In this document: one piece after another, positions 39,901-61,009 of the stretch
Layout: every line of letters begins with the position of its first letter
How positions within the stretch are numbered: the first letter of the stretch is position 1
Source: Thermoplasmata archaeon
Lineage (GTDB): Archaea; Thermoplasmatota; Thermoplasmata; Lutacidiplasmatales; UBA184
Length of the DNA: 64,000 bases
Direction: 5' to 3'
Assembly: GCA_027306505.1 (NCBI GenBank)
Contig: DAHUZP010000022.1
Span: forward strand, 1-64,000
The notes under the pieces: generated by a model
The model's input: only the letters and a program-made list of their open reading frames with translations
Told to the model about the DNA's origin: nothing
Database searches by the model: none
Position numbers and translations under genes: made by a program

Positions 39901-42763
39901 GCTCCACGGCCCCTACACCCAGGCGTGGAAGAACCTGGGCAGGGTCCTCGGTCCAGAGGAGAGGAGCACGGTCTCGGTGGGCGAGCACCAGGTGAGCGTG
40001 GACCCCACGGAGGCGTTCCGTCGCGCGCTTTCCCTGGACCCTCGTGACGCTGACGCGTGGGAGGGCCTTGCCGATGCTCTACCCCCGGGAGGGACGACCA
40101 ACGTCGACCTGGGCGAGGGCGACCAGGCCGTGTGCCGGGCGGACGCCTACGTCCGCGCACTGGAACTAGGGCCCCCCGCACGGGCCGAGGGTTGGATCGG
40201 GCTCGCGGCAGAGCTCGGACCGGAGGAGCGGCGCCTGCTCCATCTCCGGGGGAAGGAGGTGACCTTCACCCGGGCGGGCTGTGTGGACCGGTTCCTGACG
40301 CTGCGGGGGAGCGACGCAAGCGCGCTCCTCGAGGTCGGCAAGGTCCTGCGGGCCGGGGAGACGTTGCCGGTTCGCTTCGGGACCGACACTCGCACCATGG
40401 ACCGCCAGGACGTCTTCTTGCGGACCCTCTCGCTCGACGACCGCCTCGCGGAGGCCTGGCTGCGTCTCGCGCAGGAGCTCGCCCCCGGTCCCCGACCGGT
40501 CCCCGTAGGACCGTCCGGCAAGGAGGTTCCGATGACCCGGCAGGGCTGCTTCGAGCGTGCGCTCACCCTGGGCTTGGAGGGGCAGGACGAGGTGGAGGCC
40601 GAGGCCTGGGCCGGGCTCGCCGAGACCCTGCCCCCGGGGACCTCGATCACGCTGCGGCTGCAGGGAGGCTCAGCTCGTGTGGACCGGGCCAATGGCCTCG
40701 GACGCGCGGTGAGGCTGGACCCGTCGAACTCCTCGCGATGGTTCGAGCTCAGCAAGGCGCTCGCCGGGGGAGGTTCGGTCTCGGTCCCCTTGCAGGGCAA
40801 GGAAGAGGCGATCGATCGCCACGCCGCGCTCACCAGGACGCTCGAGCTCGATCCCTCGAACGCCGAGGCCTGGTTCCTCCTCTCGACCTGCCTCCCGAAG
40901 GGGAAGGAGACCCTGCTCGCGCTACCCGGTCGGCCACCCGCCATGTTCTCCGGGCAGGCTTGCCTCGAGCGCTGCCTCGCGGCGCAACCCCTTCACGACA
41001 AGGCCTGGCGGGCCCTCGCCAGCGCGCTGGGCCCCGAGGGGACGACGCAGGTCCCGCGTCAGGGAGCGCTCCTGCGCGTGAACGCGGTCGCTTGCCTGGA
41101 GCGCCACCTGGGGCTGACCCCTCGGGACGCCGGTGCGTGGTGGGACCTCTGGGGATTCCTTCCCGCGGAGGGTGTCGCCCAGCTCGTCCCCAGGTCCGGG
41201 CCGACCCAGCCCTACACCCGCCGAGGCTGCCTCATCCGGTGCCTCTCGCTGGACGCCTCTCGGGCTGCGGCGTGGGAAGCGCTCGGAGGCTCGCTCGCCC
41301 CGTCGGAGACGCTCAACCTGCCCGTGGAAGGGCGAACGCTCAGCGTCAACGCGCGGAAGTGCTTCGAGAGGGCCATCGAGCTCTCGCCCTCCCTCGTCGG
41401 GGCGTGGCGGGGCCTCGTCCGCACGCTCGGTCCCGGGGAGGTGTCGCAGGTCCGCCTGCCGGGGGGCGCAGGCCCGGTCAACCGTCGCATCGCGCTCGAG
41501 CACTTGCTCGCTCTCGATCCCGATGACGGCGCGAGCTGGGGCACGCTCGCGGACGTCCTCGCTCCGGGGGAGTCGACCTCCTTCGCCCTGGGCTCTGGGC
41601 GCGCCGAGACCTGGGACCGACGTTCCTGCCTGGAGCGCGCGCTCGCCCTCGATCCCTCCCAGGGGCGGGCGTGGACCGCCCTCGCCGCTCTCCTGCCGAA
41701 GGGAGGGGGAACGACGCTCCCGGCTCTTCCCCCGAACGGCGCATCCACGAAGGTGACCCGCCGCGAGTGCCTCACCCACGGGGTCGAGCTCGACCCGCGC
41801 TCCGGATCCGCGTGGCGCGCCCTGGCGGAGGACCTCTCCCCCGGGGAAACGGAGACCGTGGAGCTCGACGGCCGGCCCTCGAAGCTTGATCCCAGGGCGT
41901 GCCTGGAGCGGGCCGTCTCCTTCGCTCCCACCGATGGCGAGGCCTGGGCCGCGCTTGGGCTCCTCCTTGGTACGGAGGGATCGGCGGAGGTCCTCGTCCA
42001 TGGCCAGCCGCGCAGGTTCCCGGCCCGCGCTTGCCTGGAGAAGGCGCTCGAGCTCTCTCCCTACCAACCCCGAATCTGGTGGGCGCTCGCCCGACAGCTG
42101 CCGGCGGACGCGTCGACGACGCTCACCCTGCAGGGCGCCCCTCGCACGGTGCGCCGCTTAGAGGCCCTCACCTGGTGCGTGAACCTGGACCCGACTCTCG
42201 CCACCGCGTGGGCGGACCTGGGAGCCCTGCTTCCCCCCGGTGGCTCGGTCCAGGTGACCCTGAAGGGCCAAGCGAGGTCCATGGGCCCCCGGGACTGCCT
42301 GGAACAGAGCCTGACCCTCGACCCCAAGAATCCCCGGGCATGGAACAACCTGGGCGTCATGGTCTCCGATGGCGGCGCCGCGACCATCATGTTGGATGGT
42401 CGGCCGACGGAGGTCAACGAGGCCGCCTGCTACGAGCGCGCTCTCGCTCTGGACCCCGCCTACGCGGTGGCCTGGAACAACTTGGGAAAGGCGATCCCCG
42501 CCGGGGGCCGTGGTCGCGTGGAGGGGAGCGAAGGGCCGGTCCAGGTCGTGGCCAAGGACTGCTTCGCGAAAGCGGTGAGCCTGCAGCCCCGCTACGCCCA
42601 GGCCTGGAGGAACCTCGGAGAGTCCCTCGGTGACGACGAGAACATCTCCCTCGCGTTGGAGGGGGCCGGCCAGGCCTTCAGCTCCGAGGAGTGCTTCCAA
42701 AGAGCGCTGGAACTGGAGAACGGGCCCTCCGCTCCCCCACCCTCGAACGGCGCGAGCCAGTAG
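36980..42763 (+). CDS. giant protein of 39 hairpin-inserted TPR-like repeats
   Basis: A 1,927-residue soluble protein. Residues ~3-102 are a helical domain (LRALLRDLCPG, SRMAVESWVFALGL) also found at the C-terminus of the receptor at 61170. A Pro-rich linker follows (about 108-175). The rest is 39 tandem units of ~45 residues. Each has helix A (WxxLGxxL), a short strand pair with the pattern VxLxGxxxxV, then helix B (CFERALxLDP). This is a TPR with a ~10-residue beta-hairpin placed between its helices. Translation starts at TTG 36980, nine bases after GGAGG; the next Met is at 37016 and would truncate the first helix. It is probably a scaffold for the neighbouring signalling proteins; no enzyme motif is present. 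Confidence 0.85.
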   Translation: MTPTVRGALKECMDQRGDALFDDPRLLRALLRDLCPGVRDREVFAVLWALEDGIPQDLRALPQGPGARYGVVRFVRRLADRRGITEELSRMAVESWVFALGLPFSDTGEAGSAPPPPAATATGGSPPGGPPSCPAPWSPAPPSPWAAPPPPPTAPARAPPPPPPPSASSGGAGGSGAERDWVALGLSLPPQGEVTALIDGIPVRLTRRECFEKAVALRPRDPRGWWHLGSMLPPGTVATVPLHGRPAPLGAVECLQQTLSLDPAQAQAWVQLGVALDPSTQRSVSVSISGRPQSVRPRDCFERAVVVDPKLSVAWLNLARTLQGSESIRLRLGGEETTVTPVLAYSRAVELDPKDPGAWAGLGRALGPGGNTTLALPEGPLPFSARGCFELAIGLGATKEADIWFALARSLGASEEVKLEMEGKEVRLRRSQARERGLSLSPARAEEWFELGRDLVGSQTAQVVIDGRARVGGRVECFERSLSLEPENAEAWYELGTSLAKGGRASVLLQGKSTPLTSQQCLERAILLDPLHPRAWSALADTLGPVGYTTLRLNGVETRVTSLGCLERHLGMDPKDGTAWWRLSQVLGPDQTASIPGSEKGMRPTTITRRGCLERTVALEPGAANAWLRLGAEMGAQERVALAIQGGTTSLSARECFERSITLDPKVGEAWTRLGSSLGPRERTELSLEGSKRSFDAQACFLRGLGLDPSDASAWVLLARTLDKGESAAPPSGGGSEPISRRQCAERALERDPKLGEAWSVLGEELSGSERPTVQAGRESVPVNATEAFVRAVVLDPSLATAWRGLGSSLPRGGSVVLPKDGGPQTVTRTQAYQRSVELDPMDPRAWEGLGSSLGPSETVPLRAPEVRGPVSRQLCFEQAAMLDPKNAKVWNNLGAVLPKGSMASVAIEGARRTFNEQACYERAIALDPRYAIAWNNLGACLGPKGLAHVPKAGGAASETEEVSARFCFERALALHGPYTQAWKNLGRVLGPEERSTVSVGEHQVSVDPTEAFRRALSLDPRDADAWEGLADALPPGGTTNVDLGEGDQAVCRADAYVRALELGPPARAEGWIGLAAELGPEERRLLHLRGKEVTFTRAGCVDRFLTLRGSDASALLEVGKVLRAGETLPVRFGTDTRTMDRQDVFLRTLSLDDRLAEAWLRLAQELAPGPRPVPVGPSGKEVPMTRQGCFERALTLGLEGQDEVEAEAWAGLAETLPPGTSITLRLQGGSARVDRANGLGRAVRLDPSNSSRWFELSKALAGGGSVSVPLQGKEEAIDRHAALTRTLELDPSNAEAWFLLSTCLPKGKETLLALPGRPPAMFSGQACLERCLAAQPLHDKAWRALASALGPEGTTQVPRQGALLRVNAVACLERHLGLTPRDAGAWWDLWGFLPAEGVAQLVPRSGPTQPYTRRGCLIRCLSLDASRAAAWEALGGSLAPSETLNLPVEGRTLSVNARKCFERAIELSPSLVGAWRGLVRTLGPGEVSQVRLPGGAGPVNRRIALEHLLALDPDDGASWGTLADVLAPGESTSFALGSGRAETWDRRSCLERALALDPSQGRAWTALAALLPKGGGTTLPALPPNGASTKVTRRECLTHGVELDPRSGSAWRALAEDLSPGETETVELDGRPSKLDPRACLERAVSFAPTDGEAWAALGLLLGTEGSAEVLVHGQPRRFPARACLEKALELSPYQPRIWWALARQLPADASTTLTLQGAPRTVRRLEALTWCVNLDPTLATAWADLGALLPPGGSVQVTLKGQARSMGPRDCLEQSLTLDPKNPRAWNNLGVMVSDGGAATIMLDGRPTEVNEAACYERALALDPAYAVAWNNLGKAIPAGGRGRVEGSEGPVQVVAKDCFAKAVSLQPRYAQAWRNLGESLGDDENISLALEGAGQAFSSEECFQRALELENGPSAPPPSNGASQ

Positions 42764-47075: not shown

Positions 47076-47972
47076 ATGGAACTACGGCACGTGAGGATCG
47101 TCGGGAACCCCGGCTCCGGTCGCACGACGCTGCTCGCGCTCCTCTATGCCTATCTGGTCCAGCAGTCCACCGCCGAGGAAGGGTCGCGGGCCGCCTACCG
47201 GTTCTACGCGGACCCGGAGTCGGTCCGCAAGGGCGGTGACCTCTACCGCCGACTCTCCCAGCGGCGAGGGGGCGAGAGCCCCGTGCCCCCCTTAGGCTCG
47301 ATCACGCTGGAGATCGGACGGGGGACCCCGAGCCGTCTCTCCTTCCTTCGAAAGAAGGACCCTGACGGGGGAGACCCCGACAGGGTCCGAATCACCTTCT
47401 CGATCCCCCGCTCCGACGGGCAGGGGAGCAACCCCCAACCCACCCCGCCTTATCCTCCGCTGAACCCTTCGCTCCCCGTGGGCCAGCCGGTCAAGATGAT
47501 CGATCTCCTGGTCCATGCGATCCCCAGAGAGACGACCCCTGGCGGAGGCGTCCCAGGCAAGGTCTCCAACCCCGAGGGTCCAGGAAGCGCTCCCCCGGTC
47601 CCACCGGGGAGCCCCCCCTCCATCGCTCCCTTCGCCTTCGCCATGCCCGGCCCGGGGTCTCCCCTGGTGCTCACCCAATGGGACGTCGCGCTGCGCTCCG
47701 AACCCGATCTCAAGCTGGGGGCGGCGCCCCCGGCCTTGGAGGACGTCCAAGCGCGCCGAGAGCTCGCCGAGTCGATCCTGGACCTTCAGGCCGGGGGAGC
47801 GGGCAGGGTCCGCCTCCCCCCCGAGGTCCCGATCTACTTCTTCGGGCTCAGCCGGGGCGGCGGACCCTTCAGCGGGACGGCCGTCAAGGGGCATCACGTG
47901 GACTTCGCGACCTACGTGCCGCGGGAGGCCGATGCCTTGCTCGCGCGGCTCTTGGGTTTGAGGCGACCCTGA
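47076..47972 (+). CDS. P-loop pseudo-GTPase, paralogue of the island GTPase
   Basis: A 298-residue protein related to the GTPase at 50311. The first ~60 residues align: P-loop then LLALLYAYLVQ and YRFYADPESVRKGGDLYRRL, against LGLLYAAQT and YRFYGDPSTIRQMGSMYNAM. The P-loop reads GNPGSGRTT, so the invariant lysine is Arg16. The region matching the GTPase's DVAGED lacks the aspartate/glycine pattern, and no NKxD-like motif is evident. A Pro-rich insert lies at about 110-190. It is therefore probably a catalytically dead partner or regulator. It is convergent with the AAA+ gene, with 19 bases between them. Confidence 0.65.
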   Translation: MELRHVRIVGNPGSGRTTLLALLYAYLVQQSTAEEGSRAAYRFYADPESVRKGGDLYRRLSQRRGGESPVPPLGSITLEIGRGTPSRLSFLRKKDPDGGDPDRVRITFSIPRSDGQGSNPQPTPPYPPLNPSLPVGQPVKMIDLLVHAIPRETTPGGGVPGKVSNPEGPGSAPPVPPGSPPSIAPFAFAMPGPGSPLVLTQWDVALRSEPDLKLGAAPPALEDVQARRELAESILDLQAGGAGRVRLPPEVPIYFFGLSRGGGPFSGTAVKGHHVDFATYVPREADALLARLLGLRRP

Positions 47973-47991
47973 ACTTGCCTAGCGGCCCCGC

Positions 47992-50295
47992 TCAGTCCTC
48001 TGGGGGGGTCGGCCCCGGGCCCTGCGGCCCGGCCCCGGCGAGCTCAACCTTCCCCCCCGCAGGGGCTGAAGCGGTTTCGAGGTAGCGCACGCCCTCGGGG
48101 GTGAGCGTGCGGCCCGTCGGCTGCACCGAGACCAGGCCCGCGCGCTGGAGCCCGGCGAGGATCTCCCGCTCCACGTACAGGCGATCGCTTTCCCCGAGGA
48201 GGTTCAGGAGCGTGTCCAGGCCGACCGGTCCGTCCTGGGCCCTGAGGAGGGAGAGCACCTTCCGGTGCACCGGGCCGAACCCGAGAGCGTCGAGCTCCTC
48301 GGAGCGCTCGAGGTCCGCGAGGTGGTCGGAGAGGCTCCGGTCCCGGTCCAGGCTCACCTTCTGCCGGGAGGCGAGGTCGTGCGCGAGCCGCAGGGCGACC
48401 CGCGGGATGAGCTGCCCCAGCGTCGCGAGACGGGCGCAGATCTCCTTCGGGAGCTGCGGGTAGCGACGGGCGACGATCTCCGCCACCTCCTCACGGGTGT
48501 AGTCGTTGAGATGGACCTCGGGGCTGAACCGGGAGCGAAGAGCGCGGTCCACCGCCTGCGGCCTCGTCGTGGCCGCGACGAACGTGGCGTAGGGGAACCG
48601 GTGGATCCCCGAGTCCAGCCGCACGAACCGGGTGTCCGGCTCGGTCAGGGTGAGCAGGGCTTCCTGGGTGCGGCGCGGGACCAGCTGGACCTCATCGATG
48701 AAGACGAGCACAGGGGGGTACTCGTACTCGGTCATCCCCTGGGACCTCGCCTCGAGGGTCCTGGGCGGGGTTCCCTGGGCGCGGAGCGTGGACCCTACCG
48801 CCTCGATGAGCGTGTCGCGGTCGGAGACCGACTGGCCGTCCAGGAGCACCAGCGGGACCCCCAGAGCCTTCGCCATGGTCTGGGCGAGCGTGGTCTTTCC
48901 TGTGCTCGGGTTCCCCGTGATGAGGTAGGACGAAGCGAGACGGGGCGGTGAGCTGGTCAGCGCCGAGACCAGGTCGATGGAGATGCGCTCGATGGCGCCG
49001 GAGTTCCCCACGAAACCGTGGAAGGCGTCCCCCACGCGCCGGTGCGCCTCCTCCAGCGAGGGAGGGGCGGGGGCAGCAGAAGGGACCTGGGCGGGGGGCG
49101 CGGGCTCGGGCGTCTTCGGGGCGGGCGGAGATCGGGGGGTCGGGCTCGCAGCGATGCCCTTGCCGTACGGGTCCGGGGAGGGGGCGTGGGGGGCGGGTGT
49201 GGTAGGGGCGGATCTTGGGGAGGAAGAGGGGGGGGCCGAAGAGGGCGAAGGGGAGCGTGGGGAAGGAGAGGGAGGAGGCGCAGGAGAGGGAGGAGGCGCA
49301 GGAGAGGGAGGAGGCGCAGGAGAGGAAGACGCGGAGGGCGGCTCGAGGTCGGAGGGATCTCCGCCACCTTCCGGCGGGCCCGGCCCGGTCGTCCTGGAGC
49401 TCGTCGGGGAGGGCCGCTTGGGCGGCGCGCCCACGATGCGAGGGGTGGGCTTATAGGCGGTATCGATCGCGGCGTAGAAGGCGGAGAGCTTCGGGTTCCG
49501 CGGGGCGTCCACCTTCTCGACGTTCGCCTCCACCAGGGCCCACCTCTGGTCCGCCCGGATGCCGCGGGGGGAGACGACCACCTGGAACGCGTCGAGCTGG
49601 CTCACCGGAGGAACGTCGCTCATCGACACGGGGACGGGGAGCTTTCCGCCGATGCAGAGGACCTCCAGCAGCTGGTAGAGCACCTCCACCCTCACCGCGT
49701 CCTCGGTCCCGGGCAGGTAGAGCAACGTCCTCCCATCGCGCACCGTCGCCCAGCGCGACGCGACGTTCTCCACGGCCGCCTTCGACAGGAGCTTACGCAG
49801 TCCAGCCCCGAGCATCGGCAGTTGCGCGGGGTCCTCCTGCAGGGGTACCTTGAGCGGAGCGATCGTCCCCTCCACACCGGGCTGCTCCCGGTCGAAACGA
49901 CGGACCGCCTCATCGATCGAGGAGAGGAGGAGCCGCCGGGAGCGGAGCAGCTCCATCGGCGCGATGACCGAGTGATTGACGTAGGTGTCGCGCCCGGCCT
50001 CGTCGGGAAGTCCCGGCTTGAGGACGGAGAGCAGGAGCTCGTCGCTGTCCGCGACCGGATGGGCCATCCGGATGTCGGTCAGCTTTCGGTCGACGCTGTC
50101 CGAGACGATCCCCCGGAGCGGAGTGTAGTGCCCCCTCAGTTTCGCCTCGTACAGGGTGAGGTTCAGTCCCTCTGCGACCGCCATGACCCGGTAGCCGACG
50201 GTCCTGGGACGCCCGTAGATCCAGTGGTCGAGGAGGATCGCCTCCCCCTCGTCCCCCGATCCCTCCGGGACCGGCTCGCCCTCAGGACCGGCCAT
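47992..50295 (-). CDS. AAA+ ATPase with GAP1-like N-domain and RuvB-like C-terminal wing
   Basis: A 767-residue protein. Residues ~15-282 resemble the N-domain of GTPase-associated proteins (GAP1-N type), with YGRPRTVGYRVMAVAEGL and GRDTYVNHSVI. A Pro/Ser-rich linker follows (285-415). The AAA+ core has Walker A GNPSTGKTT (461-469), Walker B LVFIDEVQLV (Asp534 and Glu535), sensor 1 in FVAATTRP, and an arginine in ALRSRF. A winged helix (about 670-745) matches the RuvB C-terminus (RAGLVSVQPTGRTLTPEG). It lies 15 bases downstream of the GTPase in one operon, and the fusion suggests it acts on, or in response to, that GTPase. It is not a canonical Holliday-junction helicase. Confidence 0.78.
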   Translation of the reverse strand: MAGPEGEPVPEGSGDEGEAILLDHWIYGRPRTVGYRVMAVAEGLNLTLYEAKLRGHYTPLRGIVSDSVDRKLTDIRMAHPVADSDELLLSVLKPGLPDEAGRDTYVNHSVIAPMELLRSRRLLLSSIDEAVRRFDREQPGVEGTIAPLKVPLQEDPAQLPMLGAGLRKLLSKAAVENVASRWATVRDGRTLLYLPGTEDAVRVEVLYQLLEVLCIGGKLPVPVSMSDVPPVSQLDAFQVVVSPRGIRADQRWALVEANVEKVDAPRNPKLSAFYAAIDTAYKPTPRIVGAPPKRPSPTSSRTTGPGPPEGGGDPSDLEPPSASSSPAPPPSPAPPPSPAPPPSPSPRSPSPSSAPPSSSPRSAPTTPAPHAPSPDPYGKGIAASPTPRSPPAPKTPEPAPPAQVPSAAPAPPSLEEAHRRVGDAFHGFVGNSGAIERISIDLVSALTSSPPRLASSYLITGNPSTGKTTLAQTMAKALGVPLVLLDGQSVSDRDTLIEAVGSTLRAQGTPPRTLEARSQGMTEYEYPPVLVFIDEVQLVPRRTQEALLTLTEPDTRFVRLDSGIHRFPYATFVAATTRPQAVDRALRSRFSPEVHLNDYTREEVAEIVARRYPQLPKEICARLATLGQLIPRVALRLAHDLASRQKVSLDRDRSLSDHLADLERSEELDALGFGPVHRKVLSLLRAQDGPVGLDTLLNLLGESDRLYVEREILAGLQRAGLVSVQPTGRTLTPEGVRYLETASAPAGGKVELAGAGPQGPGPTPPED
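49271..49324 (-). repeat. three perfect 18-base tandem repeats
   Basis: Three identical copies of an 18-base unit encode SPAPPP units within the Pro-rich linker of the AAA+ protein. Copy number could change by slippage and alter linker length. Confidence 0.85.
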
Positions 50296-50310
50296 GCGAT
50301 CTGGCCTCCG

Positions 50311-51306
50311 TCAGCGCGAGGGGACCTGGTTGCCTTCTTCCACGTCGTCCGGCGCCCGGTCCGCGAGCTCCCGGAAGTAGTCGATGAAGGCCCGGTACTC
50401 CTCGTAGGCGAACTTCACGTCCCCCTTGAGGTCGCGCTCGATGGCGGGCTTGCTCGACGTGTCCATCCCCGCCACCTGGGCCACCTGGACCCAGCTGAAG
50501 AAGAACTGCGACTTGTCGAAGTTCACGCCCATGAGCCGCCCGCCCTTGAGGAGGGCGAACATCTGCGGCAGGAACCGGGTCATCAGCGCCTGTCCGAACC
50601 TCTCACGCCCCGAGTGGTCCGACGGGGCCGGGGGGGACGGGGGCAGCCCGAGCTGGGTCAGGACGTCGGAGGGGATCTGGTCGAACTTCGACAGGACGAT
50701 CACCGGGTAGATGGTGGTCTGGGAGGTGCCCTTCTTTCCGCCGGTCGGTGCGGTCTTCTTCGCCATGTCGGCCTTGTGCTTCGCCAGCGAGGAGAGCAGG
50801 ACGGCCCCGTTCTTGTCGTAGTCAAGCATCCGGTCGAAGAGGCTGCCGGTGGTGGTGGTCGTGAACCGCGAGCAGTCGACGATGAACACGATGATGTGGG
50901 CCTTCAGGAGCTCCTGGATGACGCGGCGGTTCTCCGTCACGCCGGTCTCGACGAACTCCTCGACGTCCTCACCGGCGACGTCGTAGGCCGCGAAATCGAT
51001 GATGCTGAAGGGCTTGACCCAGTTCGCCTTGCGGATGTTCTCGGGGAGCATCTGGGAGAGGCCGCGTGGAAAACCGAACTTGAATCGGATCTCGCTCATC
51101 TCCTCCTTGAGGTTCGCGGGCGGGAACCGTCCGTTCCGCATCGCGTTATACATGCTGCCCATCTGACGGATCGTGGAGGGGTCCCCGTAGAACCGGTAGC
51201 TCTCCCCTCGAAGCTCGTTCGTGTAGCGGGTCTGGGCCGCGTACAACAAGCCGAGGAAGACCGTCTTTCCGGACGACGAATACCCGTAGATCGCGGCTGG
51301 GCACAT
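50311..51306 (-). CDS. small GTPase of the signalling island
   Basis: A 331-residue GTPase-fold protein. G1 is GYSSSGKT (8-15), G3 is DVAGED (109-114, with Ala and Glu where Ras-like proteins have xxGQ) and G4 is SKFD (206-209). YRFYGDPSTIRQMGSMY after G1 is shared with the pseudo-GTPase at 47076. Long helical inserts lie between G3 and G4 and at the C-terminus. Bacterial GTPase-centred conflict systems pair similar GTPases with GAP1-type proteins, and such a protein is the next gene. A TATA box at 51331-51338 gives a leaderless start. It probably acts as a nucleotide-dependent switch, with no membrane segment. Confidence 0.82.
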   Translation of the reverse strand: MCPAAIYGYSSSGKTVFLGLLYAAQTRYTNELRGESYRFYGDPSTIRQMGSMYNAMRNGRFPPANLKEEMSEIRFKFGFPRGLSQMLPENIRKANWVKPFSIIDFAAYDVAGEDVEEFVETGVTENRRVIQELLKAHIIVFIVDCSRFTTTTTGSLFDRMLDYDKNGAVLLSSLAKHKADMAKKTAPTGGKKGTSQTTIYPVIVLSKFDQIPSDVLTQLGLPPSPPAPSDHSGRERFGQALMTRFLPQMFALLKGGRLMGVNFDKSQFFFSWVQVAQVAGMDTSSKPAIERDLKGDVKFAYEEYRAFIDYFRELADRAPDDVEEGNQVPSR

Positions 51307-51330
51307 AGCGCCTCGATGGGGGGTGGTGGA

Positions 51331-51338
51331 TGAAAAAG
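51331..51338 (-). promoter_or_regulatory. TATA-like box of the GTPase-AAA operon
   Basis: CTTTTTCA on the minus strand is centred about 28 bases before the GTPase ATG, so the mRNA would be leaderless and separate from the kinase operon upstream. Confidence 0.4.
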
Positions 51339-51434
51339 GTGTCGGCGACCCGATACTTCGTCCTCCGAGCGCCCTCCCGCCTCTTGGGCCCGCTCGGAGG
51401 ATAGGGTCCGGCGACCCTCACGGCGCGCCTGGGC

Positions 51435-52823
51435 TCAGGCGGCGATGGCCCCTTCCACGGTGCCGAACCGTATCCTCCGTCCAAGGGTGATCGAGACGCT
51501 CCTCCCCGGCTCCACGGAGGCCTGAGAGCCATCCGGTGCGGTGGTCGACCAGGCACGGTTGCTGAGGTTCTTGATCCCCCACCGGGACGGGTCCTGGGGA
51601 TGCTGCACGATCGAGGCCACCGGTTGGGAGTAGTCGTAGAGGCGGGTGGGGTCGATGTGGTGGGGGAAGAGCTGCGTGTCAGCGTTCAGGATGACCCAGG
51701 TCTTGCCGAGCCGCAGGCGCGGAGGTCGTGAGACCGTGGCGGAACAGACCCAGCAAGGGTCCGTGGGGGGAAGTTCCCCGGCCCCCTCGGTCGGCGGGGT
51801 CCCCCAAAGTCGGGCCGAGCGGTCGACGAAGTTCTCGTGGCGGTTAGGGCAGTAGGTGATGTCGTCGCGCAGCTGGGACATCACCATCCTCCACTCGGTC
51901 TCGCGGACGCGACCGTTCTTGGGGTCCTTGAGCCCCACCGTGAAGGCCTTCGTGAACTTCTCCCGTAGGAACTCCGGGTAGATCTTCCAGAGGTCGAACG
52001 CGTTCGCCCCCGCCTCGCCCGTCGGGTCCTTCTCCCAGGGCAGCGCCTCGTTGACGGTGTTCGATTCGTCGAAGATGAAGACCGGCTCCTCGCCGCACAG
52101 CTTGATCCGGGCCTTGAGGTCCAGGCTGCGGATCTGGAGCAGGCGCTTCCCGTAGAGCGGGTGATGGACGTGGAAGAGGTAGAACAGGAGGACGCTCAGC
52201 GAGAAGAGGTCGGACTGCGTGTTGGGCAGGCTCTGGCCCCGGACGAGCTCAGGGGCCATGAAGTCCGGGGTGCCCATCACCCCTCCGATCCCTTCGGCGT
52301 CCACACCCACGTTGTCGTTGTCGCAGATCGCGATGTCGCCGGTCGTGGGATCGAGGAAGACGTTCCCCGCCGAGATGTCACGGTAGCAGAGACCGTGGGC
52401 GTGCAGTTGGAGGAAGCTGTGCGCGAGCTGGAGGCCCGCGGTCGCCCGCGCGCGGAAGGTGGGGTCGATCCGGCCCTTCAGCAGGTCGGTCATCCCTCGG
52501 AAGCGTTTCTGCCGCAGGGGCATGAGATACCCGAACGAAGGCGAGCCCGGCTGAGACACGAGGTCCGACGGCCAGAGGAAGCGCTCGCTGGGCGTCCCCT
52601 TCGAGATGAGGACCTCGAGGGAGCGACGTTGGGAGGGAGTGCACCAGTTCGGATAGTACCACTTGACCGCGACCTCTTCTCCGTCGAGGCTGGCCGAGTA
52701 GACCTCCCCCTGTCCGCCCGCCCCGATGAACTCCCGGACGACGCACGGGCTGCCGGAGGTCGAGCTGATGAGCCGGTCCCCCGAGCCGAGGGAGTTGAAG
52801 GCTGGACGGGGAGGAGGGCTCAC
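51435..52823 (-). CDS. Ser/Thr protein kinase of TerY-P type with FHA-like C-terminus
   Basis: A 462-residue kinase. The Gly loop is GAGGQGEVY (34-42) and the ATP lysine is Lys54 in VAVKWYY. The catalytic loop is YRDISAGN (147-154), with Tyr replacing His but Asp149 and Asn154 kept. The magnesium loop is CDNDNVG in place of DFG, and MAPELV (189-194) ends the activation segment. Residues ~325-375 contain four cysteine/histidine positions of a possible zinc ribbon (CPNRH...CWVC). The last ~70 residues (WGIKNLSNRAW, PGRSVSITLGRRIRFG) resemble an FHA domain. It starts with GTG directly abutting the PP2C stop codon. With PP2C and VWA it forms a TerY-P-like triad. Confidence 0.88.
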   Translation of the reverse strand: MSPPPRPAFNSLGSGDRLISSTSGSPCVVREFIGAGGQGEVYSASLDGEEVAVKWYYPNWCTPSQRRSLEVLISKGTPSERFLWPSDLVSQPGSPSFGYLMPLRQKRFRGMTDLLKGRIDPTFRARATAGLQLAHSFLQLHAHGLCYRDISAGNVFLDPTTGDIAICDNDNVGVDAEGIGGVMGTPDFMAPELVRGQSLPNTQSDLFSLSVLLFYLFHVHHPLYGKRLLQIRSLDLKARIKLCGEEPVFIFDESNTVNEALPWEKDPTGEAGANAFDLWKIYPEFLREKFTKAFTVGLKDPKNGRVRETEWRMVMSQLRDDITYCPNRHENFVDRSARLWGTPPTEGAGELPPTDPCWVCSATVSRPPRLRLGKTWVILNADTQLFPHHIDPTRLYDYSQPVASIVQHPQDPSRWGIKNLSNRAWSTTAPDGSQASVEPGRSVSITLGRRIRFGTVEGAIAA

Positions 52824-53795
52824 CTATCCTGCACCTCCCTTCGCGGCGACGTGGGCCCCGGCGGCCCTCTTGGACGCTCCTGCCGGACCGACCGAGGGGA
52901 CACGGAAGAGAAGCCCCAGGGTGATGTCGTCACCGCTACCGTCCCGGGAGGTCTGCTCCAGCATGCCCGGGAGGCTCTCCCCCACGTGACGGGCCCCCTC
53001 CCGACAGAGGCTCGCCAGGACGTCGCGCGCGAAGGCCTGGAAATCGGTCGCGTGGGGAAAGGACTTGGACAGCCCGTCGGTCGAGAGCCAAAGGAGCACG
53101 GGGTCCGCTCGGGAGCGGGCGTAGAACCGCAGCCGAAAGTCCTGCCAGGCACCCTCGCGCGAGAGCGAGAGCGTCTGGTCCCCCACCAGCCCCGCGTCGG
53201 GCGGGACCGGCTCCATCACCTCGCCACCTTCCGAGACCATCAGGATGTCGCCGTCCCCGATCTGGAGATGCAAGAGGAAGTCCGGGGCCACGGCCGAGAC
53301 CACCAGCGTGGTGCCGTAGGCGAGCCTTCGGTGCCCTTCAGAGACGGTCGATCCCGGGGACGCGGGGGTGCCAGCGCCCCCTTGGAGGGCCAGGGTCTCC
53401 TCGGGGGTCAGCGGCCTCAGGGCGAGCTCCTCGTCGACCTTCCTCTGCCACTCCCGCTCGATCTGCTTCGCCAGCATGTCCTCGGCGAGGCGCTTCACCA
53501 CGAGCAGGTTCTCGTGCGATGCGGTCTTCTGCAGGAAGCGCCAGAGGACCTCGGTCGCGGTCTCCACGGCAAAGACCGCCCCCTGCTGGCTGCGGGGGCT
53601 CCGGGCGTCGCCATGTCCGTCCGCCACGGACATCACCAGGGGGGTGGGGGTCTGCCCCTCTCCGGCCGGGAGGCGGGGGAGGAAGCGGAAGGCGTCCTGG
53701 TTCGGCCGGGCGTCACGCACGTGCTTCGCGCCCCGCACGCTCGCCGCCACGGGAGCCCAAGCGTCCACGGTGCCCTGGACCTCCACCGCCGCCAC
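52824..53795 (-). CDS. PP2C-family protein phosphatase
   Basis: A 323-residue metal-dependent Ser/Thr phosphatase that presumably opposes the adjacent kinase. Metal-site and fold motifs are present: NQDAF (32-36), VADGHGDAR (58-65), YGTTLVV, IGDGDI, LWLSTDGLS and SGDDITLGLLF. An insertion of ~60 residues (about 105-155) lies between the early motifs. The GTG start is 28 bases after the VWA stop. The protein is soluble. The kinase gene begins at the next base, so expression is tightly coupled. Confidence 0.9.
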   Translation of the reverse strand: MAAVEVQGTVDAWAPVAASVRGAKHVRDARPNQDAFRFLPRLPAGEGQTPTPLVMSVADGHGDARSPRSQQGAVFAVETATEVLWRFLQKTASHENLLVVKRLAEDMLAKQIEREWQRKVDEELALRPLTPEETLALQGGAGTPASPGSTVSEGHRRLAYGTTLVVSAVAPDFLLHLQIGDGDILMVSEGGEVMEPVPPDAGLVGDQTLSLSREGAWQDFRLRFYARSRADPVLLWLSTDGLSKSFPHATDFQAFARDVLASLCREGARHVGESLPGMLEQTSRDGSGDDITLGLLFRVPSVGPAGASKRAAGAHVAAKGGAG

Positions 53796-53823
53796 CGCCC
53801 CTCTTTCGGTGACCAGGTCCGGC

Positions 53824-54519
53824 CTACCAGACCGCCTCGGAGGACGGGCCGGAGGGTGAGACCGTGACGGGCGTGGGGAGCGGGACGGTGACCGAGGTCT
53901 CCTCTGAACGAAGTCGGCCGCGCGAGGGCTGCGAGACCGCCTTGAGGACCGCGGTCGAGGCCCAACGGATCGACCGAACGAGGGCCTCGGGGTTGTTCGC
54001 TTGCAGCGGCCGGATCGTCGGGTCGCCGATGAACTCCTGCAGGACCTCGAGGTCGACGTCCCGCCCGATCGCGATGCCGATCCTCACCGAGGACCGGCCC
54101 CAGGGCTCCTCGAGCAGCGCCTCGAGCCCACCCTTGTAGTCGTCGGTCGGTTGCCCGTCCGAGAGCAGCACCAGGACGGGGGGGAGCGCGCGTTCCTCCA
54201 TCGGGGGGATCGCGAGCTGCGAGGCGACCAGCCGGAGGGCCTTGCCGAGGTCGGTGAGCCCTCCCGCGCTCACGTCCTGCCAGGAGAAATCGTCGAGAGG
54301 GGTCGGCTTCTCCAGGTGCCAGCGAGCCCCGGAGGAGAAGGCGACCGCCCTCACCAGGACCCTCGCGTTCGGGTTGTCGTCGGCCACCTGGCGCATGAGC
54401 GGTATCGTGTCCCGGATGGAGTTGTTGACGGCCTGGATCTTCCCGTCGTCCCGCATAGAGCCGGAGGCGTCCACCAGCCAGATGAAGTGGAGCGGACGTG
54501 AGGCGACGGCCCGGGGCAT
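53824..54519 (-). CDS. TerY-like VWA protein
   Basis: A 231-residue VWA-domain protein of the TerY type. The MIDAS is intact: DASGSM (17-22), Thr in GGLTDLG and Asp in LSDGQPTDD. FIWLVDASGSM near the N-terminus and the VRIGIAIGRDVD segment fit TerY. A ~45-residue Ser/Thr/Pro tail follows and could be a phosphorylation target read by the FHA proteins. It heads the operon VWA, PP2C, kinase, the order expected for TerY-P triads linked in bacteria to tellurium and stress-response Ter systems. A TATA box at 54542-54550 gives a leaderless ATG. Confidence 0.88.
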   Translation of the reverse strand: MPRAVASRPLHFIWLVDASGSMRDDGKIQAVNNSIRDTIPLMRQVADDNPNARVLVRAVAFSSGARWHLEKPTPLDDFSWQDVSAGGLTDLGKALRLVASQLAIPPMEERALPPVLVLLSDGQPTDDYKGGLEALLEEPWGRSSVRIGIAIGRDVDLEVLQEFIGDPTIRPLQANNPEALVRSIRWASTAVLKAVSQPSRGRLRSEETSVTVPLPTPVTVSPSGPSSEAVW

Positions 54520-54618: not shown

Positions 54619-55164
54619 GTGGGCCTATCGGTCATCCTAGGGAGGTCCCTGGTGGCAGGGACCCTCATCGGCATCTCGTTCCTCTACTTCCTGTGGGTCT
54701 GGGCCTCCGGTGGCCCCCGCGACTCTCGCGAGATGCGCGAGATCGTGGTCGACCTGCTGTCGCTCCCGGCCGGGGCCTTCGCCATCGTGATCGGGGCGGC
54801 CAACGGGATCGAGGGCGTGGTCCTCGCCTTCAGCGCAGCCCTTCTCGCCGGCGGCGGGGTGGGTCTGCTCGCCCGGGCGCTCCACAACGTCCCCTGGAGC
54901 GCCATGCTGGCGCTGGCCGTCGGGACCGCGGCCGGGGTCGCCGTGTGGATCCTCGCCCCTCCCTGGGTCCCCGGATATGTCGCGCTGGTCGTGGGGTTCG
55001 TGGTCTTCATGCTCATCTACATCCCGCTCCACGCAGCTTCCGCGATCTTCGAAGTGGTGGGGTTCTTCCTCAAGGCGAGGATCTTGCTGGCCCTCCTGGG
55101 TATCGCCCTCCTCGCGGAGGGCATCCTGGTCGCGCTGGGCACGTCCATGTGGTCGCTCGCCTGA
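54619..55164 (+). CDS. polytopic membrane protein, unknown
   Basis: A 181-residue protein with five or six membrane helices and very short loops. One charged loop (GGPRDSREMREIVVD, about 31-45) follows helix 1. I do not recognise a family. It starts at GTG, matching the promoter spacing. It is divergent from the TerY-like operon and convergent with the cyclase gene, so it may be the membrane element of the island, but no direct link is visible. Confidence 0.6.
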   Translation: MGLSVILGRSLVAGTLIGISFLYFLWVWASGGPRDSREMREIVVDLLSLPAGAFAIVIGAANGIEGVVLAFSAALLAGGGVGLLARALHNVPWSAMLALAVGTAAGVAVWILAPPWVPGYVALVVGFVVFMLIYIPLHAASAIFEVVGFFLKARILLALLGIALLAEGILVALGTSMWSLA

Positions 55165-55295: not shown

Positions 55296-58220
55296 TCAAG
55301 GGGAGCGGGGAGCGGCCGAGGGCTCAGGTGACCCCGAGGCTCCGGCGGGGGGAGGCGGAGGGGACGGAGCCGGCAGGGGGCGAGCGAGCACGAACGCTCC
55401 GGGGACCAGCCGTAGGGCGAGCCGCTCCAAGACCGCGGTCTGCTCCGCTGGAAGCGAGCTGCGGTCCACCGAGAAGAGCATCGACCCCCGCTTCGGCAGG
55501 GCGAGGTCGCGGACAACATCGAGGAGCCGACGGACGTTGCGGACGTTCGTCGCCTCCACCAGATGTTCGAGGCCGGGCAGGACGACGACGCGCCCGGGAC
55601 CGGCGGAGAGATGCCGGTCGATGAAGAGCCCGATCCGCTCGAGGTCGGTGGGAAGCACGCTACCGTCACCCTCGATCGTGGAGATCCGGTACAGGGTCGC
55701 CCCCTCCAACGAGAACTTGGCCACCACGCCTTCCGGGTTCTGCTTGGTGAAGCCGAGCACCTGGGAGGCCGTGAGCCCTGCCGCACCGATCCGCCCCCAG
55801 AGCTCCTCCTCCTTGTCGGTCTCCACGTAGCAAAGAGGCTCCTCCAAGGGCCACGGCGGCGGAGGTGGTGGGGGTGGCGGCAGGGGAGGAGGGGGGGGAG
55901 CGAGGGAGGTGGCGGCCAGCGCCGACCTTGCGTCGGATGGCGAGGGGCCGGCGGCAGGGGATGCGGGCATCGCCGTCGCAGGGGGGCCCTGCCCCACCGG
56001 ACCACCGCTGAGCGGTGCGGGAGCGGCGGGGGCCGTGGGCCCCGCGCTCTCCGACGCACCCCAGGTGGCGCGGTAGGTCGGCCCCTGGGGTGAACGGCCA
56101 CGCTCGACCCTCCAGCCTAGGACCTTCCAAACCCCGTCCGGAGGGGCCCGCTCGGTGTCACCGAACGCGGCGTCATTGAGCTCCGCCTCCAGGTAGTCGC
56201 TGTCGGAGTCCGTCTCAGGAACGAGCGAGCCGTCCTGCCAGAGCTTGGAGAGGAGCAGAGGGCCCTTCGGCTTGCCCTTCCAGTGCGCGACCGCGAAGGC
56301 CCTCCGAGAGGTCTCGCTCTTGGCGAGCAGGGAGCGCAGCTCCTGGTAGGAGCCGATCTGGCGGTAAGTGGACGTGGGGGGTGCGCTCACGCGCTGCCCC
56401 TTGTCCCGCAGGGTGGCGAGACGTTCCTCCCAATCCTTCTCCTTGAGCCCGGGGGGCTCCCACGGCGAGGAGGTCCCGGGGGAGGCGCCGACCGTCAGGG
56501 AGGCAGGGCCGGCTCCCCCAGGCGGAGCGGGTGCCGTCCACGCCAGGTGGAAGGCGAGGGCGGCCCCTGTGGCACGTCCCTCGGGCGGCTGCACCGCGAC
56601 CAGGCCACAGTCCGGGAACCGGTTGGGGTGGAGCAGCACGTAGGTGTCCCGCTCCTCCCCAGGGAAGAGGTCGCCCAGGACCTCGAGGATGTCCCCCAGG
56701 TCGGCCTCTTGAGCGAGCTCGTTGAGCCGGCCCAGGGGCCGACGGGAGAGGTTCGCCTCCCGAGGGGCGAGCGCGAGATCGTCCAGGAGGGCCTGCGTGA
56801 CCCGTCCCAAGAGGATCGCCCGAGGGGAGCGGCCTTGCTCGTCCTCCTTCTTCTGCCCGGGCATGAGCCGCTTCAAGGCGGTCACGGTCGAGCCCGAGCC
56901 CGAGGCCTGGTCCTTCAGCTCGAGCAGCCGGTCCAGGAGCCAGGGGCGGCGCTCGCCTCCCCGCGTGGTGGAGGACGCGAGCATCCCTCCCCAGCGGTGG
57001 GGCATGGTCCGCGCCCAGTCGGGCGCGGTGGTGCTGGAGCGGTACCAGCGTGCGACCCGCTGCTCGACCAAGGTCACGAGCGCGGCCTCCGAGGTGGTCT
57101 CCTGTCGGACCCTCGCGAGGATGGGCTCGAGCCGCAGGGCGATCGTGGGGGCGAGGTCAGGGTTCTGGACGATGAGCGAGCGTAGCCGGGGGAAGTCGAG
57201 GTTGCTCAGCACCTCCACGTCGAAGCGCTCCTCACTGTCCATCGCTAGGAGCGAGCCGAGCTCGGGAGGAAGGGGGCGCGCGGGGGCGGGGGCCGAGGCG
57301 GACCTCGCACGGGCAGCGGCCGTCGCCGCCTTGGCCTTCTCCAGCTCGAGGCGGCTGCGCACCCGCTCCTGCTCGAGCCGTGCCTTCCACTGCTCCTGAT
57401 CGATGCGCCGCTGGAACTTCGCGCGGTCCTTCTCGCGGCGGGCCTCCTCTTCGCGGCGCGCTTGCTCTTCCTTCTCCCGCCGCTCGGCCTCGGCCTGCTG
57501 GGCCTTCTTCTGGACCTCCAGCTCGGCCTTGCGCTTCTCCTCGGCCTCTCGCCGCGCGCGCTCCGCCTGCGCCGCGATCCGGTCCTGGGCCCGCTGCTGG
57601 CGCTGCTGCTGGTCGACCTGGTCGATGAGCGAGAGCGATGCCGCGGGGGCTGCGTCCCCCGCCTGGGAGGCGGGCGACTCCTCCACATGGGCGTGCGGCG
57701 CGGCCCAGGGAAGCTCGATGCGGTAGACGTCGAGGGTGCCCTGCACCCCCTTGAGCTGCTTCGAGCCGACCTTCGAGATCGGGAAGGTCATCTTGTTGCG
57801 GACGTGGACGAAGATCTGGTCGGAGACGACCACCCCTCCGGGCTCCGCCAACGGAACGAGCCGTGCGGCCACGTTGACCGCGTCCCCGAAGATGTCGCCG
57901 CCGCGCTCCTCCACATCCCCGGCGTGGATGCCGATCCGCAGCTCGAGCGGAGGGCCCGCGCTCCCCTCGTTCCGGGAATGGAGCTTCCTCTGGATCTCCA
58001 CCGCGCACTGCGCGGCCTTGATCGAGCTGTCGAACTCGACGAGGGAGCCGTCGCCGGTGGACTTGATCCAGCGTCCCCCGAACTCCTCGAAGAGGGGCCG
58101 GACCATCCCCTCCTGCTCACGCAGCCGCGCGAGCGCCCCGTTCTCGTCCCTTTGGGCGGAGGCCGTGAACCCGACGATGTCGGTGAAGAGGATGGCCGCG
58201 AGCCTGCGCGAACTGGCCAC
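55296..58220 (-). CDS. class III adenylate/guanylate cyclase with C-terminal DUF835
   Basis: A 974-residue soluble protein. Residues 1-~175 are a class III cyclase with metal aspartates Asp14 (LFTDIVGFT) and Asp57 (STGDGSLVEF), Lys53 near the purine site, and GDAVNVAARL (112-121), so it looks active. A charged coiled coil follows (about 200-305, EEKRKAELEVQKKAQQ). Residues ~330-720 are unrecognised. A stretch of consecutive prolines leads to a DUF835 domain (about 770-935, LPGLEHLVEATNVRNVRRLL), which is mostly archaeal. The start is GTG, about 26 bases after a TTTAATT box. The next gene upstream is a cyclic-nucleotide-binding protein, an obvious receptor for its product. Confidence 0.88.
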   Translation of the reverse strand: MASSRRLAAILFTDIVGFTASAQRDENGALARLREQEGMVRPLFEEFGGRWIKSTGDGSLVEFDSSIKAAQCAVEIQRKLHSRNEGSAGPPLELRIGIHAGDVEERGGDIFGDAVNVAARLVPLAEPGGVVVSDQIFVHVRNKMTFPISKVGSKQLKGVQGTLDVYRIELPWAAPHAHVEESPASQAGDAAPAASLSLIDQVDQQQRQQRAQDRIAAQAERARREAEEKRKAELEVQKKAQQAEAERREKEEQARREEEARREKDRAKFQRRIDQEQWKARLEQERVRSRLELEKAKAATAAARARSASAPAPARPLPPELGSLLAMDSEERFDVEVLSNLDFPRLRSLIVQNPDLAPTIALRLEPILARVRQETTSEAALVTLVEQRVARWYRSSTTAPDWARTMPHRWGGMLASSTTRGGERRPWLLDRLLELKDQASGSGSTVTALKRLMPGQKKEDEQGRSPRAILLGRVTQALLDDLALAPREANLSRRPLGRLNELAQEADLGDILEVLGDLFPGEERDTYVLLHPNRFPDCGLVAVQPPEGRATGAALAFHLAWTAPAPPGGAGPASLTVGASPGTSSPWEPPGLKEKDWEERLATLRDKGQRVSAPPTSTYRQIGSYQELRSLLAKSETSRRAFAVAHWKGKPKGPLLLSKLWQDGSLVPETDSDSDYLEAELNDAAFGDTERAPPDGVWKVLGWRVERGRSPQGPTYRATWGASESAGPTAPAAPAPLSGGPVGQGPPATAMPASPAAGPSPSDARSALAATSLAPPPPPLPPPPPPPPPWPLEEPLCYVETDKEEELWGRIGAAGLTASQVLGFTKQNPEGVVAKFSLEGATLYRISTIEGDGSVLPTDLERIGLFIDRHLSAGPGRVVVLPGLEHLVEATNVRNVRRLLDVVRDLALPKRGSMLFSVDRSSLPAEQTAVLERLALRLVPGAFVLARPLPAPSPPPPPAGASGSPEPSAAPRSP

Positions 58221-58242
58221 GGGGGCCCATCGGCTCCCTGGG

Positions 58243-58249
58243 AATTAAA
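58243..58249 (-). promoter_or_regulatory. TATA box of the cyclase gene
   Basis: TTTAATT on the minus strand is centred about 26 bases before the GTG start, so the transcript is probably leaderless with a GTG at its 5' end. Confidence 0.5.
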
Positions 58250-58300
58250 CCAGCGCTCGCCGCGGGGGCCCACGGGCGGGGGGGCCCCCGACCTCTTCCC

Positions 58301-58726
58301 CTATTCGGAGAAGCCGGACCCGGAGCTCCTCAAGCGCCGGACCGTCTCGCGCAGGAGGGCCTGCAGGACCTCCGGCTCCTTGGCGATGGTCCCCCAGAAC
58401 TCCCAGCGGTTGAAGACCAGGCAGCGGGAGGGCTTGGAGGCCACCACGTCCGCGGTGCGTGGCTGTTCATCGAAGAGGGCCATCTCCCCGAAGAAGTTGC
58501 CGGGCTGAAGGGAAGCCACCCGCTTCCCGTCCTTGCGGACCTCGAGCTCCCCGTCCAGCACCAGGTAGAACCCGACCCCCTTCTCGCCCTGGCGGACGAC
58601 CGCCCGCCCGGTCTCGTAGGAGAGCTGCGTGCCGCTCTTCGCGAGCCCCTTGAGGTGACCTCGGGCGACGTTGGAGAAGAGCGGCACCGTGGCGAGCATC
58701 TTCAGGGTCGACTCCTCTTCCGGCAT
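58301..58726 (-). CDS. stand-alone cyclic-nucleotide-binding protein
   Basis: A 141-residue single CRP-type binding domain without a DNA-binding helix-turn-helix. The phosphate-binding cassette is FGEMALFDEQPRTADVVA, with Glu81 and Arg90 in the positions that hold the ribose and phosphate of cAMP or cGMP. GEKGVGFYLVLDGELEV is the usual roll. It probably reads out the product of the adjacent cyclase and passes the signal to a partner. Its promoter (58771-58777) leaves a ~22-base leader. Confidence 0.9.
   Translation of the reverse strand: MPEEESTLKMLATVPLFSNVARGHLKGLAKSGTQLSYETGRAVVRQGEKGVGFYLVLDGELEVRKDGKRVASLQPGNFFGEMALFDEQPRTADVVASKPSRCLVFNRWEFWGTIAKEPEVLQALLRETVRRLRSSGSGFSE

Positions 58727-59461: not shown

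Positions 59462-61009
<1,548 letters not shown>

Follow-up and report, generated by a model that had tools for sequence, protein, structure and literature searches.

A TerY-P-type triad beside a conserved GTPase module in a Thermoplasmata archaeon

Gene content of the locus

The locus lies in the first 64,000 nucleotides of contig DAHUZP010000022.1 (assembly GCA_027306505.1) of a Thermoplasmata archaeon, a stretch referred to here in its entirety as the window. All six genes that a preliminary description had placed between positions 47076 and 54519 are confirmed as real and occupy the coordinates compiled in Table 1. Coordinates, Pfam matches, and gene spacing bear out the arrangement it proposed, in which genes for a VWA protein, a PP2C phosphatase, and a Ser/Thr kinase (STK) follow one another on one strand, with those for a GTPase (g1) and an AAA+ ATPase next in line. 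The intergenic gaps, which measure 28 bp (VWA/PP2C), 0 bp (PP2C/STK), 128 bp (kinase to GTPase), and 15 bp (GTPase/AAA+), favor a division into two operons, the triad and the GTPase–AAA+ pair. The gene that converges on the latter operon from the + strand (g2) encodes a pseudo-GTPase, as had been suggested, since the Lys of its P-loop is replaced (GNPGSGRTT), the DxxGE motif is lost, and TQWD is the remnant of NKxD. The AAA+ protein, correctly recognized earlier as an ATPase with a distinctive N-terminal domain, has intact motifs and is built from an N-terminal regulator domain (Ndom), a Pro-rich linker, a RuvB-like AAA+ ATPase, and a C-terminal winged helix.

Table 1. Features of the locus, with positions in the window, strand, and supporting evidence
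Feature	Position	Strand	Evidence
VWA protein, TerY-like, intact MIDAS (DASGS...T...D)	53824-54519	-	PF00092 E 1e-7
PP2C phosphatase, metal-site motifs intact	52824-53795	-	PF13672 (PP2C_2) E 5e-31
TerY-P-type Ser/Thr kinase, C-terminal CxxxH...CxxC ribbon and beta-rich tail	51435-52823	-	PF00069 E 2e-15
GTPase g1, 331 aa, DO-GTPase2-like, active-looking	50311-51306	-	PF19993 E 5.4e-6, 26.7 bits (cut-off 27)
AAA+ ATPase, 767 aa	47992-50295	-	PF00004 E 1e-13; RuvB_C E 2e-6
Ndom (N-domain of the AAA+ protein)	49423-50250	-	Alignment, AF2 model, Foldseek
Degenerate P-loop protein, g2 family, 298 aa	47076-47972	+	Motifs; paralogue of g1
Multi-TM protein	54619-55164	+	Similar sequence (by eye) directly adjoining g1 in sister locus L033
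Class III nucleotidyl cyclase, c2 (~residues 322-725), DUF835	55296-58220	-	PF00211 E 3e-13; DUF835 E 6e-16
Cyclic-nucleotide-binding protein adjoining the cyclase	58301-58726	-	PF00027 E 3e-21

Toward the end of the window, a zinc-ribbon protein with an apparent tandem FHA region, recognized by eye, is encoded from 63573 to beyond 64000 (L134, 5574–6566, − strand); this FHA-like protein begins ~9 kb from the triad, and a DnaK gene adjoins it outside the window. Another zinc-ribbon protein (59462–61009, − strand) appears by eye to be homologous to one in L129 (10105–11574) that weakly matches Band_7/SPFH (E 0.009) and is encoded next to a distantly related copy of the module to which g1 belongs.

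The TerY-P-type triad

The VWA, PP2C, and kinase genes constitute a bona fide TerY-P-type triad, as the preliminary description had anticipated: the catalytic motifs are intact (DASGS in the VWA protein; RPNQD, DGHGD, and SGDDIT in PP2C; VAVKW, YRDISAGN, and APE in the kinase), and full homologous triads are found on bacterial plasmids. The definition applied is taken from PMC11090510, which cites Anantharaman 2012 for a triad of VWA, PP2C, and a Ser/Thr kinase that bears a C-terminal zinc ribbon; the three genes are likewise encoded together here. The tail of the window kinase has zinc-ribbon-like Cys/His pairs, its motif CPNRH...CWVC aligning with the CxC/CxxC...CxxC pattern of its homologues, but with one ligand replaced. 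Full triads were compared at three loci (L061, L064, and L065). Two bacterial plasmids carry full-length triads with the same kinase tail: one from Methylomonas, whose kinase shares 44% identity with the window kinase across 98% of its length, and one from Prevotella, whose triad adjoins an annotated TerY-C protein. L061, from an archaeon belonging to the same class, likewise harbors a full triad, with a kinase that is 36% identical. No close homologue of the triad kinase was found in 150 related genomes besides the window's own, in which it is the sole PF00069 match above the cut-off. On the simplest reading of these sequence comparisons, the triad would have been acquired horizontally beside the GTPase module.

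The reported absence of canonical Ter proteins holds for TerD, which was not found in the window's genome (87 contigs, 88% complete), and no defense genes were recognized around the triad; for TerY-P, linkage to Ter or restriction genes is usual, not invariable. TerY-P triads form part of CoCoNuT systems and also of stand-alone antiphage modules (PMC11090510). The gene order in the accessory triad of type II and III-A CoCoNuT is STK-VWA-PP2C (PMC11090510), whereas that found here is VWA-PP2C-STK, and, unlike at CoCoNuT-linked triads, no CoCoNuT helicase or nuclease was recognized at the window locus.

A domain of ~100 aa, recognized by eye around RCRGMLKDL...AVESWALAL, opens a 1927-aa TPR protein elsewhere in the window (36980–42763, + strand), is repeated beside the Methylomonas triad (L065, 10894–15430), and adjoins c2 in another locus (L111, 149–904). 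It is possibly a shared adaptor.

The archaeal GTPase module

The motifs of g1 are intact (GYSSSGKT, conforming to GxxxxGKT; DVAGED; LSKFD). The P-loop Lys is kept across 57 g1 homologues, and the Walker B Glu of DxxGE is present as DVSGED, DVAGED, or DIAGED in 56 of these and as DAPGEE in the remaining one. All 10 members of the g1 alignment match the DO-GTPase2 family PF19993 (best E 1.6e-6), the window protein falling slightly below the cut-off, and a DO-GTPase2 from Rhodococcus that is accompanied by a verified GAP1 scores little better (E 4.4e-7). g2 is a paralogue of g1 (E 7e-7), and its family as a whole has lost DxxGE, with the P-loop Lys gone in 33 of 47 members. The PF19993 match, just under the cut-off in the window, and the g2 motifs support an assignment of g1 to the DO-GTPase type and of g2 as its degenerate partner. 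The GTPase profile retrieved nothing significant from PDB sequences, and no useful match came from plasmids searched with g1. The pairing of the two genes suggests that g1 and g2 may form a complex, that is, a GTPase dimer.

g1 is present in 33 of the 150 related genomes and Ndom in 32 of the same 150, the two being adjacent nearly always except at contig ends. Across 84,980 species genomes, 53 g1 loci were recovered, mostly from Thermoplasmata or "Euryarchaeota" MAGs, with one Desulfurococcaceae MAG (29% identity; L117) that retains the g1–Ndom pair and one MAG titled "bacterium" whose locus closely resembles those of Thermoplasmata. Ndom is encoded on 53 of 57 g1 contigs, g2 on 47, c2 on 45, a flotillin-like protein (c3) on 26, the AAA+ fusion on two, and the triad on one; because these contigs are mutually related, the counts do not represent independent events. 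Spacing between g1 and Ndom is mostly 0 to 50 bp or the genes overlap, and module order persists in Thermoplasmata from soil and mine drainage and in another class (L116/L129). The window's genome has three g1 copies, on C78 (the window), C77, and C46. In the better-sampled modules, the flanking genes are common to the species within a genus, which points to vertical inheritance. Further g1–Ndom(–g2) loci occur in other families (L130, 7252–10602; L131, 5109–6980, where g1 is split across two reading frames). The substantive result is a conserved archaeal set of an active-looking GTPase, a degenerate GTPase, a TagF/longin-DENN-like regulator, and c2, often with flotillin. This widespread module is apparently undescribed, a non-exhaustive literature search having found no earlier description of it.

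Ndom is elsewhere mostly encoded by a stand-alone gene of ~280 aa, and its fusion to a RuvB-like AAA+ ATPase is found at two loci only, the window and L110/L033. In L049 (2474–4342), and probably also in the genome G145 (L132, 9356–10659, with L133, 3–1001), Ndom is joined to a HerA-like ATPase, so that the domain has been linked to an ATPase independently. The confident AF2 model of Ndom (pLDDT 85.6, pTM 0.87) begins with a longin-like part, in which three strands, a helix, three more strands, and a pair of helices succeed one another, continues into an alpha/beta part, and has no d-DENN part. Its best Foldseek match is the type VI secretion protein TagF (9t0n; E 2.4e-5, prob 1.00, moderate TM-score (TMq) of 0.46), while Lst4 longin, Npr2/Npr3 of the SEA complex, FLCN, and Loki longin match below significance (prob 0.3–0.5). 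From this single predicted model, the fold of Ndom appears to resemble TagF and, more weakly, longin-DENN regulators that act on Rag-type GTPases. Nothing significant emerged from a fold search of a viral library; at the sequence level, a TagF profile does not match Ndom, and the Ndom profile finds nothing significant among PDB sequences, leaving no sequence-level link to the fold relatives.

The domain had previously been likened to GAP1, a view that Pfam profiles and hhalign lead us to reject at the sequence level. No GAP1 Pfam match is found in Ndom of the window or in five distant members, a single member out of 21 in the family matches GAP1-N2, with an E value of 0.076, and hhalign gives ~0% probability against a bacterial GAP1-N2 that itself scores 1.8e-18 in Pfam. 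The Rhodococcus GAP1 operon was found with an approximate GAP1-N2 query and then confirmed as GAP1-N2 by Pfam; Streptomyces plasmids searched for GAP1 yielded nothing. We consider it unlikely that the locus is an archaeal version of the DO-GTPase–GAP1 conflict systems (Kaur et al. 2020, PMC7159879) in which Ndom would be a GAP1-N/M that has diverged strongly. The PF19993 score of g1, close to that of the GAP1-linked Rhodococcus protein, the Walker B GE motif, the frequent second GTPase, and a partner encoded directly downstream all recall those systems, and bacterial GAP1 too begins with two consecutive domains (GAP1-N2 and GAP1-M). However, the partner is not detectably GAP1 by sequence, with no significant match to either a GAP1-N or a GAP1-M profile, no FNIII protein or variable effector was recognized, the loci are archaeal, and their second GTPase is usually degenerate.

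c2 is a domain of ~400 aa conserved next to the GTPase module and a convergent neighbor in other loci, encoded on the strand opposite to the module. In the window, it is placed between a nucleotidyl cyclase and DUF835; in other copies, PKD domains precede c2, and a hydrophobic insertion, probably a membrane segment, interrupts it. The AF2 model of c2 is confident (pLDDT 86, pTM 0.63) and has no fold match in the PDB (best E 2.2). c2 may be a mere neighbor of the module in some lineages. The cyclase–c2–DUF835 protein and the cyclic-nucleotide-binding protein (55296–58726, − strand) possibly form a cyclic-nucleotide circuit in this Thermoplasmata archaeon.

One system or two modules

The preliminary description envisaged the two modules as fused into one archaeal locus, with a possible threshold-type role in defense or stress. 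Spelled out, the triad would phosphorylate and gate the GTPase/AAA+ module upon viral or envelope stress, as might fit two adjacent and codirectional operons, the antiphage associations of TerY-P triads (PMC11090510), the FHA-like reader nearby in the window, and an FHA protein (PF00498 E 7e-11) that adjoins g1–Ndom in the Desulfurococcaceae locus. We judge this rather improbable. Comparison of neighborhoods across archaeal genomes places the triad beside the GTPase in the window only, in 1 of the 57 g1 contigs, an absence elsewhere that rests partly on draft MAGs, with the sister contig L033 ending near the corresponding point; with no close homologue of the triad kinase in the 150 relatives besides the window's own genome, an integrated TerY-P/GTPase system is not conserved, and, by the standard that the preliminary description itself had set, the proposed fusion is not upheld. 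No nuclease, pore, or other effector was recognized, PADLOC identified no complete defense system, and the GTPase modules sit in common chromosomal contexts within the sampled genera; the defense part of the proposed role therefore finds no support, and a mobile defense island was rejected on the PADLOC result and the shared flanks. Among the genomes sampled, the triad–GTPase linkage looks like a one-off of the window's genome. A GTPase and a longin-type regulator in shared chromosomal contexts would also suit a housekeeping switch for polarity or motility, similar to MglA–MglB and with no tie to stress, but the GTPase is DO-GTPase-like rather than MglA, and the module is patchy even inside the family; we regard this as very improbable.

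We instead lean toward a reading in which the locus comprises a conserved archaeal GTPase switch (module A: g1, g2, Ndom, and c2) and a bacterial-type TerY-P phospho-switch (module B) apparently acquired alongside it, in this genome only. Active, DO-GTPase2-like g1 would pair with degenerate g2 to form a GTP-gated switch, Ndom would set the nucleotide state of the pair as a putative GAP, GEF, or clamp, and c2 would carry the output. The flotillin/SPFH neighbors suggest that module A is often sited near such a scaffold at the membrane. In the window, where Ndom is attached to a RuvB-like AAA+ motor and c2 forms one protein with a nucleotidyl cyclase that has a cNMP-binding protein as its neighbor, the output would likely be a cyclic-nucleotide signal. 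Module B may phosphorylate module A or may merely adjoin it, the arguments for triad control over the switch being just codirection and proximity.

A further proposal, which we put forward as speculative and rather doubtful, is that Ndom is a prokaryotic longin-DENN-type regulator of an active/degenerate GTPase pair, the archaeal counterpart of both FLCN/NPR2–Rag and TagF; longin-DENN control would then not be a eukaryotic invention, and DO-GTPases, TagF, and DENN would belong to one switch superfamily. Longin domains bind GTPases, and the DENN domain is an alpha/beta sandwich known from the eukaryotic DENN module (PMC3521125). Like FLCN, Lst4/FNIP, and Npr2/Npr3 (PMC3521125), Ndom has a predicted longin and alpha/beta order and adjoins a GTPase pair, but the Foldseek support is weak, the d-DENN part is missing, and the GTPase is DO-GTPase-like rather than Rag or Rab. 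TagF, the best fold match (PDB 9t0n, 6iz8, and 2qnu), acts with Fha, the kinase PpkA, and the PP2C PppA in type VI secretion (PMC5995506), a combination that the FHA, STK, and PP2C genes found here recall, but it has no sequence match to Ndom, which adjoins GTPases, and no type VI secretion genes were recognized.

The triad–GTPase linkage carries little weight, since it is so far unique to the window's genome, and c2 represents a conserved protein domain without a recognized fold relative. Should Ndom prove to regulate a DO-GTPase in the manner of longin-DENN proteins or TagF, the origin of this type of regulator, the DENN part of which has so far been placed in eukaryotes (PMC3521125), could be tested in archaea outside Asgard, and an effect of Ndom on the g1 GTPase, if true, would tie together the GTPases of conflict systems, the control of type VI secretion, and Rag-type signaling.
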